The translations under genes and the position numbers were made by a program. The notes under the pieces are model-generated. The model ran no database searches. It saw only the letters and a list, made by a program, of their open reading frames with translations, and had not been told where the DNA came from. A DNA stretch of 64,000 nt from Thiobacillus sp. 63-78 (lineage in GTDB: Bacteria > Pseudomonadota > Gammaproteobacteria > Burkholderiales > Thiobacillaceae): the NCBI GenBank assembly GCA_001899765.1, contig MKWM01000029.1, positions 1 to 64,000 of the forward strand. The letters run 5' to 3'. Positions 652 to 51,357 of the stretch are shown piece after piece (positions within the stretch are counted from its first letter, which is position 1; the number at the start of each line of letters is the position of its first letter).

Positions 652-1788
652 TTGAAAATTCTGATCATAGGCGGTGGCACGGGTGGCACCATTCTTGCCA
701 ATAATCTATCCCGCAGGCTGAGCGGCGAGCTCAAGGCCGGCAAGGCCCGCATCGTCATGCTGTCGGCCTCCGATCGACATATGTACCAGCCTGGTCTGCT
801 CTATGTCGCGGTGGGGCGCATGACGCCCGACGAGCTTTATCGCGATCAGGCCAGCCTGCTTGAGCCGGGCATCGAATTCCACGTCGACCCGGTGACCGAA
901 TTCCATTTCGACAGGAATCAGGTCACCGCTGCAAGCGGCAAGAATTACGACTACGACATACTCGTCATCGCCACGGGTTCGCGCGCCCTGATGTCGAGCA
1001 TTCCGGGTCTGGCTGAAAATGCCGAGACGTTCTATACGGAAGAAACCGCCGTGAAGATGTTCAAGGCATTGCGCAGCTTCGAAGGGGGACGCGTTGTCGT
1101 GACGGTGGGGGTGCCTCACAAGTGCCCGATGGCGCCGCTGGAAATCACCTTCATGCTCAACGACTACTTCAAGGATCGCGGCATTCGTGACAAGGTCCAG
1201 CTGCACTACACCTATCCCATCGGGCGCGCGCACAGCCTGGAAAACGTGGCCAAGTGGGCGACGCCTGAATTCGGCAGATTGGGCATCACCTATGAAACGC
1301 TGTTCAACATGAAGGAAGTGGACGGCGCCAACAAGATTCTCAGGAGCGAAGAGGGCAGTGAAACAAAATATGATCTGCTCATCGCCATTCCCGCTCACAA
1401 AGGGATGGAAGTGGTGGAAAAAGCAGGCTTCCCGGGGGGATGGATACCCACCAATCGAGCCAGTTTGCACATGGAAGGCGAACACGGCAAGAACGTCCTC
1501 GTGTTGGGCGACACGACCAATTTGCCGATTTCCAAGGCCGGCTCCACCACGCACTTCCAGGCTGAGGTCATTGCGGAAAACCTGGCAGCAGTCATCAAGA
1601 TGGGCGTTCCCGTGCGCGACTACGACGGCAAAGTGTTCTGTTTCATCCAGGCGGGCAAAGAGCGTGCAACGTATGCCAGCTTCAATTACACGACGCCGCC
1701 CGATCCGCAGCCGCCAACCCGGGCGGTGCATTGGTTCAAGACCGCCTACAACAAGCTTTACTGGACTTCAGCCCGTGGTTTGCTTTAA
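652..1788 (+). CDS. Sulfide:quinone oxidoreductase-family FAD flavoprotein (two-cysteine type)
   Basis: A 378-residue flavoprotein with an N-terminal GGGTGG dinucleotide-binding fold (residues 7-12), an IATGSR motif near 107-111 and a C-terminal FAD motif at VLGDTTN (284-290). Cys158 (KCPMAP) and Cys330 (VFCFIQAG) fit the redox cysteine pair of SQRs that oxidises sulfide to sulfane sulfur and passes electrons through FAD to quinone. The third cysteine of type I SQR is absent. The start is TTG at 652 with AGGAGA at 641-646. It lies between the TusA-like gene and a DUF1641 gene, an arrangement seen around other SQR-like genes. The exact substrate (sulfide or protein-bound persulfide) is not decidable. 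Confidence 0.8.
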   Translation: MKILIIGGGTGGTILANNLSRRLSGELKAGKARIVMLSASDRHMYQPGLLYVAVGRMTPDELYRDQASLLEPGIEFHVDPVTEFHFDRNQVTAASGKNYDYDILVIATGSRALMSSIPGLAENAETFYTEETAVKMFKALRSFEGGRVVVTVGVPHKCPMAPLEITFMLNDYFKDRGIRDKVQLHYTYPIGRAHSLENVAKWATPEFGRLGITYETLFNMKEVDGANKILRSEEGSETKYDLLIAIPAHKGMEVVEKAGFPGGWIPTNRASLHMEGEHGKNVLVLGDTTNLPISKAGSTTHFQAEVIAENLAAVIKMGVPVRDYDGKVFCFIQAGKERATYASFNYTTPPDPQPPTRAVHWFKTAYNKLYWTSARGLL

Positions 1789-1800
1789 GGGGAGCGCATC

Positions 1801-2592
1801 ATGAACGCTCAACTCGACAGTAACCCGCCAACCGATGCGGAAGAAATGACGCGGCTGATCCAGGCAGCGCGGGATGCGATGACCGATGACCTGGTGACGC
1901 GCCTGGCGGCTACCGCGGGCGACGGCATGGACCTGCTCGATCGCGTCAATCGTTCCGGTGTGGCCAGTGCCTTGCCGCATCTTGCCACGATGGCCAATAA
2001 CGGCGACCTGGAACGTCTGGCGCAATTGGCGCGTGTCTACGGCTCGGCACAGGATGCGCTCACCGATGACATGGTGTCGCGCATGTCCGAGGCGGTCGGC
2101 GGCGGTCTGGATCTGCTCGACCAGATCAACCGTGCCGATCTTGCCAAAGCCATTCCCGTCATTGCCAGACTGGTGCACACAGGCGATCTGGATCGGCTTG
2201 CCGATATGGCCCGGCTGGTGGGCTCGGCGCAGGATGCAATGACCGATGACATGGTCAGCCGTCTGTCGGAAGCCATCGGCGGCGGCTTGTCCCTTCTCGA
2301 TCGATTGCAGCGCGGCAGTGGCGACCGCGTGATCAACATGCTGGAGCATCTCGACAAGGCCGGCACCCTGGACAAGCTGGTCGACAATCTGCCCGCGTTG
2401 GTAAACAAGATGGAAATGCTTGAGGGGCTGTTGAATTGTCTGGAGAAGTCCGCTCAGGAGGCCTCTTCCGGCCCGCCCGCCGCAGGCGGGCTGGGAGGTC
2501 TGTGGAGCCTGATGCGCGCAAAGGAAAACCAGGAAACCTTGCGTTTCCTGCTTACGCTGGCCCGCAACATGCAGCAACAGTGCGCGCGTTAA
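1801..2592 (+). CDS. DUF1641 protein with 60-residue internal repeats
   Basis: A 263-residue soluble helical protein. The motif DA(M/L)TDD starts at residues 25, 85 and 145, giving an exact 60-residue (180-bp) period; each repeat continues with a G-G-(M/L)-x-LLD stretch. The C-terminal third resembles DUF1641, a family of unknown function found beside SQR-like and formate-dehydrogenase-like flavoproteins. It starts 12 nt after the SQR-like gene, so the two are probably co-translated; a scaffold or membrane-docking role for the flavoprotein is inference. A palindrome follows directly. Confidence 0.7.
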   Translation: MNAQLDSNPPTDAEEMTRLIQAARDAMTDDLVTRLAATAGDGMDLLDRVNRSGVASALPHLATMANNGDLERLAQLARVYGSAQDALTDDMVSRMSEAVGGGLDLLDQINRADLAKAIPVIARLVHTGDLDRLADMARLVGSAQDAMTDDMVSRLSEAIGGGLSLLDRLQRGSGDRVINMLEHLDKAGTLDKLVDNLPALVNKMEMLEGLLNCLEKSAQEASSGPPAAGGLGGLWSLMRAKENQETLRFLLTLARNMQQQCAR

Positions 2593-12277: not shown

Positions 12278-13483
12278 TCAGGCTTTATGGGTGATTTTGT
12301 TGATGAAATATCTCTCGAACTCCCCTTTGGCGATGTGGACCCAGCGTCCCTGCTTGAGCCAGTTGATGTCGCGAAGGGGGACATGCGGCTCCGAAAGATA
12401 CGCGGCGCCATTCTTGCCCATGTCGGATAACCAATGCGCCCGTTGCGGGGTGTTGCTGGCAAGGGGCTTGCCGTGCATTTGAGCGAGAATGTTCGCGACG
12501 ACCGTATTGACCTCTTTCTGGATGGAATACACGGAGCTCGGCGTGCCGACCGCAAGAGGGGTTTGATCCACGATCTCGCGTGCAATGCAGATGCCCGCAG
12601 CGAAAATGTTTGGATGCGATGGGCTTCTGAGAAATTCATCCACTTCGATCAGGCCTTGCTGGTTGACCAGGGTCGACGCCGCCCGGACAGCCGGTATGCC
12701 CCGGAAAGCGGGCCAATACACCGCGAAGGAAAACGGTATCGTCTGTGGCTGTTTTTCACGGCCGGAAGCGTCGACTTCGGCAATGCTGACGGTGTTCGCT
12801 TCCACACTCAGGGTGCGCGCGTTGCTCAGGACCTTGATATTGCTGTTGGCGAGCGCGGCGGCAAATGCCTCCTGGCTCTTGTTCTTTGCGCCCAGGCCCA
12901 GATGACCGGGCCAGGGTTCCGGCGTGATCAGGGTGATGGGCACACGGTCGCGCAGATGACGGCGCTTGAGGTCGGCATCCGCCATGAAGGCGAACTCATA
13001 AACCGGGCCGAGGATGCTTGAACCTTGCATGGCTCCTACAACGAGGGGCCCCGGATTCTTGAGGAACGCCTCATAGGCGGCATGGGTGTTCTCGGCCTGC
13101 CCGATGTTGAGCACCGAATGGGCATGGCGGGCGATACCGGGCATTTCATCGAAATTGCCTTCTACCCCGGTTGCAATCAGCAGGTAGTCGTAGGACAGGG
13201 TCTCCCCGTTGTCGAGCAATACCTGATTCTTTTCTGGCTGCAGGGCTTGCACGCCACTGCCGATAAACCGGATCCCGCGCGCGTCAAGGCAGGGCGCCAG
13301 GGGAATGGATATATCCGGGCGTTTCCGCCAGCCCATTGCAACCCACGGATTCGACGGCACAAAGTGGAAATGGTCCTGGTCGGACACCACCGTGACGTCG
13401 TCCTTGGGGCCCAACTGGGATTTCAAGGCATATGCAGCAGGCATGCCGGCAATTCCGGCACCCAAAACGAGAATCTGAGCCAA
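12278..13483 (-). CDS. SQR paralogue lacking all three catalytic cysteines
   Basis: A 401-residue FAD protein colinear with the bona fide SQR at 50089 (shared HFHFVPSNPWVA-type and INWLKQGRWVHIAK-type segments). It keeps the FAD fold (LGAGIAGMPAA) and the C-terminal FAD contact. The three SQR redox cysteines are replaced: Leu125 (SVLN) for Cys127, Ile157 (GSSILG) for Cys159, and Trp351 (AHWLSD) for Cys353. It should therefore not oxidise sulfide by the known mechanism. The TTG start at 13483 is chosen because GAGGAG lies 6 nt upstream and the protein then begins AQILVLGAG; the 53-codon extension upstream has no similarity. Alternatives are another quinone-linked dehydrogenase or a binding/regulatory protein. 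Confidence 0.8.
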   Translation of the reverse strand: MAQILVLGAGIAGMPAAYALKSQLGPKDDVTVVSDQDHFHFVPSNPWVAMGWRKRPDISIPLAPCLDARGIRFIGSGVQALQPEKNQVLLDNGETLSYDYLLIATGVEGNFDEMPGIARHAHSVLNIGQAENTHAAYEAFLKNPGPLVVGAMQGSSILGPVYEFAFMADADLKRRHLRDRVPITLITPEPWPGHLGLGAKNKSQEAFAAALANSNIKVLSNARTLSVEANTVSIAEVDASGREKQPQTIPFSFAVYWPAFRGIPAVRAASTLVNQQGLIEVDEFLRSPSHPNIFAAGICIAREIVDQTPLAVGTPSSVYSIQKEVNTVVANILAQMHGKPLASNTPQRAHWLSDMGKNGAAYLSEPHVPLRDINWLKQGRWVHIAKGEFERYFINKITHKA

Positions 13484-13920
13484 TTCAATCTCCTCTGCTT
13501 GGAATAATTTCAAAATAGACACTTGATCGCCAGATGCCATGGATAAAAATTGCGGTGCAGTGAAAGCTGTTCCGTCCCCGTGCCAGTGCATGAATGTCAC
13601 GCGCGCGTCATGGTGGGTCCTGCAATTGTCGCCATGCGGCAAGACGCCGTATCGCCCCCGTCAATCGCCAGAACATGACGCCATCGACCAGACGCCACTA
13701 TAAAACGGGATTTGAATGCTTGCAGCAGTGACTTGTCATGTTCCGACTAACCGGGATAAGCGTTGGATGGATCATGCGGCCTGGGTGAGCACCTGAAACC
13801 GATCCTCGGGATCGGCGTTTTCACGCAAAACCGGCCTGCGCCGAGCCTCGGCCTGACGGCGAAGGGCCCCGGCCTGACGGCGAAGGGCCTTCCGCCTTGC
13901 GACGCCGCACCCCGTGCCGC
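13484..13920. other. Intergenic region without a recognised gene
   Basis: About 440 bp between the cysteine-less SQR gene and the DUF3617 gene. It contains a direct duplication of GGCCTGACGGCGAAGGGCC around 13850-13890 and a short hairpin CCGATCC-TCG-GGATCGG at 13799-13815. On the minus strand the hairpin lies about 105 bp beyond the DUF3617 stop and could weakly end its transcript. No ORF with a credible start and family was found. Confidence 0.5.
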
Positions 13921-48621: not shown

Positions 48622-49941
48622 TCAGCGGCCCAGGCCATGTTGTTTCAGCTTGCGGTACAGCGTGCGCTCGGTGACGCCCAGCGCGGCGGCGACGCGGGCG
48701 CGATGGCCCTGGTGCGCGTCGAGCAGGGATTGCAGGTGCGCGCGTTCCATGTCGCGCAGCGAGATCCGGGCGCCGAGGTGGTCGGGCGGCGCGGGCGACA
48801 TGCCTGCCGGCAGCCGCAGATCCGCCGCGCGGATGGTGCCGTCACGGCAGTTGAGGACGGCATGCTGCAGCAGGTTGCGCAGTTCGCGCACGTTGCCGGG
48901 GAAATCGTAGGCTTGCAATGCCGAGACGGCATCGGGCGCGAGCCGGCAGGTGCTTTGCCCGCCGGTCAGCCGTTTCAGCAGGAAAATCGCCAGGTCGGGG
49001 AGGTCGGCGGCGCGCTCGCGCAACGGCGGCAGGGTCACATCGATACCGGCCAGCCGGTAATACAGATCGAGCCGGTAGCGCCTGGCATCGACTTCGTCCA
49101 GCAGCTTGCGGTTGGTCGCCGATACCACGCGCACATTGGCGGTCAGCGTTCGTATCCCGCCGACACGGCGGAATTCGCCGGTTTCCAGCACGCGCAGCAG
49201 CTTGGCCTGCATCGCCAGCGGAATCTCGCCCACTTCGTCGAGGAACAGGGTGCCGTTGTCGGCGAGTTCGAACAGGCCTTTTTTCAGGCCGCTGCTGCCG
49301 GAAAACGCCCCGCGCTCGTGGCCGAATAATTCGCTCTCGAACAGGTTCTCCGGCACCGCCGCGCAATTGATGACAATGAATGCCATCCCGGCGCGATTCG
49401 AGCGCGCATGGATGAAACGTGCGGCGAGTTCCTTGCCGACGCCGCTCTCGCCGTACAGCAGGATCGATGCCTCGCTCTCGGCCACGCGAGCCAGCTTGTC
49501 GACGCAGGCCATGAAGGCGGGCGACTGTCCGATCATCTGCATGGCATCGCATTCGCTGCCTGCCTGGGCTTCCAGCGGGAACAACTGCTCGCCCAGATAG
49601 ATCTCGCCCGCCGCGCCGCGCAGGCGGTGCCCGCGTATGCGGGTGCGTTCGGGCTGATTGTCGGCGTGGTAATGGGTGTGCAGGACTTCGACCGCCTCGT
49701 CCCGGGTGAACAGTGCCTGGTGCGGACACTGTTCGCCATTTTCGTGGCAGGGTCGTTGCGAGTGGTGGGATACCGCGTGGCAGAGTTTGCCGACGATGGC
49801 CGCGGGGGTCATCCCGTAGGCATCGCAGTAACGCTGGTTGGCGGCGACGATACGGTAGCGGCGGTCGATGACCACGAACGGCTGCTCATGCGTATCGATC
49901 AGGCTCTGGAAGTCGATATCCATGGATGAGACACCTGTCAT
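48622..49941 (-). CDS. fisR: FisR-type sigma-54-dependent sulfide/polysulfide-responsive activator
   Basis: A 439-residue enhancer-binding protein. The N-terminal PAS-like sensor (1-110) carries Cys54, Cys65 and Cys72, whose 11- and 7-residue spacing equals the Cys53/64/71 described for Cupriavidus FisR. The AAA+ domain has Walker A GESGVGKE, a GAFSG loop (Ser for the usual Thr of GAFTG) and Walker B TLFLDEVGE. A Fis-type HTH (RVAAALGVTERTLYRKLKQHGL) ends the protein. ATG 49941 has GAGGA upstream; ATG 49923 is an alternative. Divergent from sqr, which has a sigma-54 promoter. Confidence 0.88.
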   Translation of the reverse strand: MTGVSSMDIDFQSLIDTHEQPFVVIDRRYRIVAANQRYCDAYGMTPAAIVGKLCHAVSHHSQRPCHENGEQCPHQALFTRDEAVEVLHTHYHADNQPERTRIRGHRLRGAAGEIYLGEQLFPLEAQAGSECDAMQMIGQSPAFMACVDKLARVAESEASILLYGESGVGKELAARFIHARSNRAGMAFIVINCAAVPENLFESELFGHERGAFSGSSGLKKGLFELADNGTLFLDEVGEIPLAMQAKLLRVLETGEFRRVGGIRTLTANVRVVSATNRKLLDEVDARRYRLDLYYRLAGIDVTLPPLRERAADLPDLAIFLLKRLTGGQSTCRLAPDAVSALQAYDFPGNVRELRNLLQHAVLNCRDGTIRAADLRLPAGMSPAPPDHLGARISLRDMERAHLQSLLDAHQGHRARVAAALGVTERTLYRKLKQHGLGR

Positions 49942-50088: not shown

Positions 50089-51357
50089 ATGGCACATATC
50101 GTTATTCTGGGAGCGGGCGTGGGCGGCATGACCATGGCCTATGAAATGCGTGAAACGGCACGTGCGGAAGACAGGATCACGGTGATTTCGAATCTGCCGT
50201 ATTTCCAGTTCACCCCGTCCAACCCCTGGGTCGCGGTGAACTGGCGCAAGCGCGACGACGTCACGATTCCCGCCGCACCCTATCTGAACAAGAAAAATAT
50301 CGACTTCATCGCGGTCGGCGCGGCGCGCGTGCATCCCGAGAAGAATCAACTGGAACTCACCGACGGCCAGATCGTGGACTACGACTTCCTCGTCATCGCG
50401 ACCGGGCCCAAGCTGGCTTTCGACGAGGTGCCGGGACTGGGGCCGGAAGGCCATACCCAGTCGGTCTGCCAGGTCGAGCACGCCGTCACGGCAGGCCGCG
50501 CATGGGAAACGTTCGTGCAGGCACCGGGCCCCGTCGTGGTGGGGGCGGTGCAGGGCGCGTCGTGCTATGGCCCGGCTTACGAGTTCGCCATGATCATGGA
50601 CGCCGATCTGCGTAAACGGAAGATTCGCGATCGCGTACCCATGACCTATGTCACGGCCGAACCCTACATCGGGCATCTGGGACTGGGGGGCGTCGGCGAC
50701 TCCAAGGGCATGATGGAATCCGTGATGCGAGAGCGCCACATCAAGTGGATCTGCAATGCCAAGGTCACCAAGGTCGAAGCGGGAAAGATGTTCGTCGCCG
50801 AGCACAATGATCAAGGCGAAGTCATCAAGGAACACGAGCTTCCGTTCGCGTATTCCATGATGCTGCCGGCGTTCAAGGGGATCGATGCCGTGTTCGGCAT
50901 CGAGGGGCTCACCAATCCCCGCGGTTTCATCATCATCGATCCTTATCAGCGCAATCCCAAGTATCTGAATATCTACTCGGTCGGCGTGTGCGTGGCCATC
51001 CCGCCGGTCGAGCCTACGCCGGTGCCGGTCGGCGCGCCGAAAACCGGCTACATGATCGAATCCATGGTCACCGCCACGGCGCACAATATCCGCGCCGTGC
51101 TGGATGGCCGCGAACCCACCGAGAAAGCCACCTGGAATGCCATCTGCCTGGCGGACTTCGGCGATACCGGCGCGGCCTTCGTGGCGCTGCCGCAGATCCC
51201 GCCGCGCAACGTCAACTGGTTCAAGGAAGGGAAATGGGTGCACCTGGCCAAAATTGCGTTCGAGAAATACTTCATGCGCAAGATGAAGAAGGGCTCGACC
51301 GAGCCGCTGTACGAGAAATATGTGTTGGGCCTGATGGGGATCAAGAAGCTCAAGTAA
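50089..51357 (+). CDS. sqr: Sulfide:quinone oxidoreductase, type I
   Basis: A 422-residue membrane-associated flavoprotein with FAD motif LGAGVGGMT (7-15) and all three redox cysteines at Cys127 (SVCQVEH), Cys159 ([11 protein letters not shown]) and Cys353 ([12 protein letters not shown]), matching Cys128/160/356 of Acidithiobacillus SQR. It oxidises sulfide to (poly)sulfide and reduces quinone on the membrane surface; the amphipathic C-terminus ([21 protein letters not shown]) likely anchors it. Divergent from fisR, with its own sigma-54 promoter and terminator. Confidence 0.95.

Follow-up and report, generated by a model that had tools for sequence, protein, structure and literature searches.

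An SQR homologue devoid of its catalytic cysteines

What does a protein with the fold of SQR do once its three catalytic cysteines have gone? The question is raised by a gene in the window, the whole stretch of 64,000 nucleotides from Thiobacillus sp. 63-78 that was analyzed here. Its coding sequence (positions 12278–13483, minus strand) was characterized by translation, pairwise alignment, a search of its own genome and a tree. It specifies 401 amino acids, ends with the stop codon at 12278–12280 and starts with a TTG at 13483, which the alignment places where the other family members start. Six bases ahead of the TTG lies AGGAG (13490–13494, minus strand; read from the sequence), a probable ribosome-binding site.

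For comparison we used the intact canonical SQR encoded at 50089–51357 (plus strand; open reading frame and alignment), which carries Cys127, Cys159 and Cys353. It adjoins a divergent regulator gene (48622–49941, minus strand; reading frame and sequence), called fisR in an earlier, sequence-only reading of the window. The two SQR-fold proteins are 42% identical. That reading had placed three residues of the window protein exactly opposite the catalytic cysteines, and the pairwise alignment agrees: Leu125 (codon 13109–13111) faces Cys127, Ile157 (13013–13015) faces Cys159 and Trp351 (12431–12433, all on the minus strand) faces Cys353, corresponding to Cys128, Cys160 and Cys356 of the A. ferrooxidans enzyme. 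It had also held that the FAD motif and the C-terminal tail are kept, which the alignments bear out, as both the GxGxxG motif (GAGIAG) and the WVH.AK..FE.YF segment are present. The C-terminal segment WLKQGRWVHIAKGEFERYFINK (12296–12361, minus strand; alignments) is common with canonical SQR and is a putative membrane and quinone-side segment. No other cysteine occupies the redox site: only Cys65 and Cys299 are left, neither of them at a redox position.

A type II NADH:quinone oxidoreductase, or any such use of NADH, is expected to show a GxGxxG motif in the second domain. Residues 150–155 of the window protein, in that domain, read GAMQGS, and use of NADH was discarded.

The structural model of the window protein has a mean pLDDT of 84.4, and its top Foldseek matches are A. 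ferrooxidans SQR structures (TM 0.88). The model thus supports the SQR fold, but not the exact place of Trp351, which belongs to a segment (residues 346–377) with pLDDT below 50.

The gene lies between an RND-pump-like ORF on one side and a DUF3617 gene on the other. The claim that it stands alone holds for this copy, the regulator–sqr pair being about 35 kb away, but not for its family, which sits in nar clusters (see below). Upstream, the search for an FNR-type box gave a single palindromic site with three mismatches, and such a box was rejected. A plasmid source was considered and rejected: all 31 matching plasmid records are below 60% identity, and the best 10 of them (39.9–45.4%) are at the level of canonical SQR, judged by identity alone. 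Elsewhere in the window, positions 652–1788 (plus strand) encode a further SQR/flavocytochrome-c-like flavoprotein with cysteines (Pyr_redox_2, weak FCSD_central), followed at 1801–2592 (plus strand) by a protein whose match to DUF1641 is weak and falls slightly short of the cut-off.

A second copy in the same genome, and spread of the family

Searching the window genome gave six matches at E ≤ 0.001, the window gene included. The best of the others (58% identity) lies on contig C15, locus L036, and also lacks all three cysteines (I/I/W); the intact SQR ranks third, with 42%. The C15 copy is full-length and nar-linked, in the order narK-narG-narH-narJ-narI-[Cys-less SQR]-DsrC/TusE-like-NnrS. 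Next to it is the only narG match of the genome; the window copy has no nar cluster around it.

In the taxonomic family, 89 of 117 genomes contain a match at E ≤ 1e-60. Leaving the window gene itself aside, identities to the window protein split into 52–65% and 40–45%. The 46 proteins sampled from the upper group (window gene included) are without exception devoid of the three cysteines, the 16 sampled from the lower group all carry them, and a Cys-less member is found in 43 of the 117 genomes. In larger samples, a full-length profile separates its matches into two classes, an upper one at E ≤ 1e-210 and a lower one at E ≥ 1e-156. The former occurs in 13 of 399 genomes of the order sample (three of them from the taxonomic family of the window), in 2 of 369 of the class sample and in 1 of 398 of the phylum sample, the latter being the window's own genome. 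Three further genomes of the phylum sample pass 1e-150 at canonical-SQR level, and one of these (L123) was seen to have the cysteines. A contig scan with the window protein alone found no relative; with alignment A2 it did, and the best 80 loci include named contigs of T. denitrificans RG (L195), T. thioparus DSM 505 (L187) and Sulfuriferula multivorans TTN (L196). All these searches were seeded with the window protein at strict thresholds, and remote Cys-less SQR types lie outside the sampled set. Two assemblies, G114 (L037, L048) and G088 (L041, L051), each contain a pair of nar-linked Cys-less copies located on separate contigs; both show 7–8% contamination, so mixed bins are possible.

The Cys-less proteins form one clade with a coordinated change of the active site

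A tree was built from 159 rows, comprising 58 Cys-less proteins, 100 canonical SQRs and A. ferrooxidans 3KPK; duplicates and sequences below 380 aa, L079 for instance, were left out. It was obtained with a quick method, with SH-aLRT support, no bootstrap and a midpoint root. The 58 Cys-less rows are all on one side of a single branch (SH-aLRT 100), and the window copy falls within the part formed by its taxonomic family (support 99, 43 rows), where it has the longest terminal branch of all Cys-less rows (0.52). Rows had been sorted by the presence of any cysteine at the three sites, hence the zero count in the 58 is the sorting rule itself. The 100 canonical rows, in turn, all have cysteine at all three sites, and none of the 158 rows has one or two. 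Two clean states with zero intermediates over 158 rows led us to reject chance or misalignment as the cause of the absence of cysteines. The sequence-only reading had asked whether homologues with the same Leu/Ile/Trp triple form a clade. A clade is indeed formed, but the exact triple was rejected as its signature: sites 1 and 2 are variable, and only the tryptophan is fixed (58 of 58 rows).

In A. ferrooxidans numbering, used from here on except for Trp351, C128 is replaced by I, L, V, M or T and C160 by V, I, M or T in the 58 Cys-less rows, with C356 changed to W throughout. H132 is Q in 50 of 58 rows, including the window copy. T321 → S and G322 → V are found in all 58, W352 → Q in 51, V/I355 → K/R in 53 (His in the window copy) and K320 → D/E in 55 (Ser in the window copy). 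All 58 retain E166, H198, K391 and F394, and the 100 canonical rows show no variation at the three cysteines, H132, H198 and W352. With the FAD contact list given in PMC10512742, the window copy keeps S34 and K391 and has changed G12 (to A) and G322 (to V). PMC9666304 names Val354, Phe357 and Phe394 beside the quinone; residues 354 and 355 of the A. ferrooxidans chain used here are Ala and Val, and Leu occupies position 357 in all 100 canonical rows and in all but one of the 58 Cys-less rows. As judged from these alignments, the change at the site is coordinated, and it also affects the flavin and quinone side (G12, G322, V355): G12 → A, G322 → V and V/I355 → K/R may alter contact with flavin or quinone. 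One lineage (L155, L158–L162) has a cysteine two residues ahead of site 2 (GCAILGP), and none at the three sites.

According to PMC6335251, C160 and C356 serve electron transfer and the polysulfide bridge, C128 serves product release, and H132 and H198 are termed essential. Mutation of the triad cuts activity by 70–100%, as cited in PMC10512742. Given these roles and the residues lost, it is very unlikely that these proteins oxidize sulfide by the SQR mechanism, and the window protein very probably does something other than oxidize sulfide.

The window copy is under purifying selection

Twelve chosen pairs of the Cys-less family gave pairwise dN/dS values of 0.03–0.21. For the window copy against L037, L038, L040 and L036 the values were 0.18–0.22 (dS 1.2–1.6). 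The remaining 57 Cys-less rows have 91 invariant columns, of which the window copy keeps 88; its TTG start, shown as L, accounts for one of the three departures. A neutral simulation, in which half of the observed difference was placed on L037, left 15 of 2000 copies free of stops; the window copy is open over 401 codons. As estimated from these comparisons, the window copy is under purifying selection, with dN/dS about 0.2, a pairwise value that averages both branches and would hide a very recent relaxation of this copy. The sequence-only reading had seen in the loss of the cysteines, with the fold intact, selection for a different role, and had named isolated degenerate copies with dN/dS near 1 as what would speak against it. 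The proteins instead form one clade with dN/dS well below 1 and invariant columns preserved; the copies are neither isolated nor evidently relaxed, and the proposal stands.

Relatives of the window gene follow narI

We examined 59 distinct Cys-less loci (L001, L036–L080, L155–L165, L184 and L198), in four of which (L075, L079, L080, L162) the contig ends at or within the gene. In 53 of the 55 readable loci, many of them in Thiobacillus, the Cys-less gene lies downstream of narI and in the same orientation, either immediately or after one or a few genes. Only the window copy and L164 depart from this, the latter with just 1.9 kb of upstream sequence available. The corresponding gene of T. denitrificans ATCC 25259 is probably Tbd_1407, to judge by the distance in locus tags from narH, which is Tbd_1404 in PMC3753534. 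The intervening gene is DsrC-like in L039 and parvulin-like in L155 (Pfam PPIC-type) and in L157 and L165 (by eye); the Thiobacillus loci have no parvulin-like gene there. As a control, 42 canonical SQR loci with flanks of 14 kb on average gave no match to narG, H, J, I, K or NnrS, and a DsrC/TusE match in two cases.

The narG genes of the taxonomic family fall into two score classes, at about 2180–2208 and 1872–1935 bits. Of 29 genomes with narG of the high class, 28 have a Cys-less copy; among the 31 whose only narG of full or nearly full length belongs to the lower class, two have one (Fisher p 2e-13, relatedness of the genomes confounding the counts). One genome at 2103 bits and those with partial narG only were left out of this comparison. 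In the two exceptional genomes (G053, G112), the Cys-less gene follows as well, although their narG shares 61–63% identity with the narG of the window genome.

The gene after the Cys-less SQR on contig C15 (about 6044–6397 of L036, minus strand) is DsrC/TusE-like, and other Thiobacillus nar clusters have such a gene in the same place. DsrC/TusE proteins are expected to have a penultimate cysteine. It is absent here: the proteins of the Thiobacillus nar clusters end in KQACKIAGM(K/R)RPRAWSTG or a close variant, with one cysteine kept. Thus two neighbors in the nar cluster look like sulfur-handling proteins without their key cysteines. The L036 copy has ten extra residues (about KDKDAKREAQ) which are absent from the other aligned Thiobacillus copies, and the matches in L038 and L039 are of a second kind (32–37% identity), with a C-terminal region devoid of any cysteine.

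Relatives carry a C-terminal extension which the window protein lacks

In the other Cys-less loci, a further 108–125 aa or so follow the aligned core, with a break of the frame in L079. In the window protein, this extension of about 115 aa is missing after the C-terminal segment. We considered whether an extension might lie hidden or frameshifted downstream of the window gene and discarded this, since a profile of the extension found no match among open frames of at least 15 aa in the six frames of the window.

Database searches with the extension gave scattered weak matches: at E ≤ 1, any given Pfam family was hit in at most 2 of 41 members, a RelB-like antitoxin of NCBIfam was hit in one of four members (E 0.024), and six PDB sequences matched in a profile search (E 0.2–2.4), none of them named ribbon-helix-helix. 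The AlphaFold2 monomer model (41 rows) has a mean pLDDT of 76.6, with well-predicted helices at 53–66, 70–87 and 91–108 and no strand. Foldseek returned 38 matches for it (best E 1.6), of which 20, going by name, we take to be ribbon-helix-helix or TCP chains. Comparison by hhalign with 30 RHH_1 sequences of related genomes gave a score of 24.0 and a probability of 40%, and none of 100 column shuffles was as high (highest 19.2). With 30 TacA sequences the score was 18.7 (probability 4.4%), narrowly above all 100 shuffles (highest 18.5). In the controls, windows of the SQR core scored no higher than 11.8 with RHH_1 and 16.0 with TacA, a DsrC-like alignment scored 18.0 with TacA, and TacA against RHH_1, the positive control, had a probability of 85%. 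When hhalign was run without context, the extension scored a probability of 3.0 against RHH_1 (30 shuffles up to 1.3) and 0.2 against TacA, for which 30 shuffles reach 2.4, above the real value. From sequence and model, it is possible that the extension is a ribbon-helix-helix domain. The would-be DNA-facing strand carries Glu or Asp with Arg or Pro, residues which would not favor binding of DNA.

Possible roles of the family and of the window gene

We tentatively favor, at somewhat short of even confidence, the view that Thiobacillus and related bacteria possess a conserved family of SQR-fold flavoproteins, blind to sulfide and accessory to nitrate respiration, whose genes normally belong to the narGHJI cluster, and that the window gene is an orphan paralogue of these with a shortened C-terminus. 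This builds on what sequence comparison established above: clade membership, the loss of the three cysteines, the fixed tryptophan, purifying selection and the association of the family with nar genes. The protein would keep FAD at the membrane surface. Its sulfide/polysulfide pocket would be filled, C356 having become Trp, C160 Val or Ile, C128 an aliphatic residue and H132 mostly Gln, so that sulfide could not reduce the flavin; as pLDDT is below 50 in the Trp351 segment, this filling is drawn from the SQR literature and not from the model. In the full-length family, the state of the flavin might then be set by the quinone pool or by another partner, and the protein would act as an accessory or redox-sensing subunit of nitrate respiration, with the C-terminal domain serving dimerization or signaling. 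The window gene would encode a further version of the protein, from which this domain is absent. As it lacks both the nar neighborhood and the C-terminal domain, the role of the family may not carry over to it.

It is possible, if rather doubtful, that the protein is instead an active quinone reductase with a new donor: the Cys-less site would bind another reductant, for instance a protein-bound or small nitrogen or sulfur compound, and electrons would pass via FAD to quinone and NarGHI. The invariance of E166, H198, K391 and F394 and the retained membrane-side segment fit such an enzyme, as does the placement of the relatives beside a nitrate reductase that uses quinol, with a DsrC/TusE-like gene next in Thiobacillus. 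Against this, no donor can be named, GAMQGS stands in place of an NADH-type motif, and G322 → V and V/I355 → K/R change the flavin/quinone side. A quinone link of the window protein, which the sequence-only reading had suggested, is possible, but residues beside the flavin and quinone sites are also changed in the Cys-less family.

By analogy with PutA, one may also think of the full-length family as a redox switch, in which a sulfide-proof flavin would read the quinone pool and a ribbon-helix-helix domain would signal to the nar cluster, the window gene being a variant freed of the signaling domain; we consider this unlikely. A role in maturation or stability, the protein being a membrane flavoprotein scaffold that assembles or protects NarGHI, would agree with the regular place downstream of narI and with the peptidyl-prolyl isomerase-like (parvulin-type) gene between the two in other lineages. 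We hold it to be quite unlikely, because the gene is absent from 29 of the 31 same-family genomes with only the other narG type, so that Nar as such does not need the Cys-less protein, and the strong conservation of the flavin site would be unexpected of a mere scaffold. That the window copy is a decaying duplicate, drifting after loss of its C-terminal domain and neighborhood, is very unlikely: its long terminal branch, missing extension, orphan position and TTG start would suit decay, but the low dN/dS to its nearest relatives, a reading frame that few neutral simulations keep open and the retained invariant columns do not. Binding of sulfide or polysulfide without turnover, or regulation of canonical SQR, both raised by the sequence-only reading, have in their favor the SQR fold and a canonical SQR in the same genome and are nevertheless highly improbable, as the three sulfur-binding cysteines and His132 are gone and no second SQR flanks 45 Cys-less loci (E ≤ 1e-40).

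Homology-based annotation would list these genes, which the favored reading takes to be sulfide-blind, among the sulfide oxidases. With a relative probably unable to oxidize sulfide in 43 of 117 genomes of the taxonomic family, estimates of sulfide-oxidation capacity in sulfur-driven denitrifiers are affected. The family also points to a component where sulfur oxidation meets nitrate respiration, in a genus with one species described as genetically tractable (PMC3753534). Among the titles and abstract openings listed in our literature search, which covered papers accessible without subscription, none concerned a Cys-less or nar-linked SQR.

Comparison with known systems

The closest characterized protein is the type I SQR of A. 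ferrooxidans (PDB 3KPK/3T31 series), which resembles the window protein in fold and over residues 2–397 (phmmer E about 1e-98) and shares with it the FAD motif, E166, H198, K391, F394 and the C-terminal membrane-side segment. Of what marks a type I SQR, the window protein thus has the fold with its FAD motif; it has neither the three cysteines nor the pair of His132 and His198, only the latter histidine being present. It differs further in having Trp at Cys356, Val at Gly322 and Gln at Trp352, and it belongs to a clade apart, whose other members add a C-terminal domain and a location in nar clusters. With these relatives the window copy shares the clade and the site-3 tryptophan, but neither the place downstream of narI nor the extension. 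Full-length relatives are regular members of the narGHJI clusters of Thiobacillus and Sulfuriferula, and the window copy is outside them.

The flavin domain of PutA differs from that of SQR-type proteins. The likeness to PutA is one of idea only, that of a membrane-surface flavoprotein with, in the full-length family, a possible ribbon-helix-helix-like domain; unlike in PutA, the family's domain is C-terminal and weakly assigned, and the window copy has no such domain. According to PMC5293562, PutA is a flavoenzyme that carries a ribbon-helix-helix domain and moves between DNA and membrane; it is the nearest working analogy for the full-length family, and not for the window copy.
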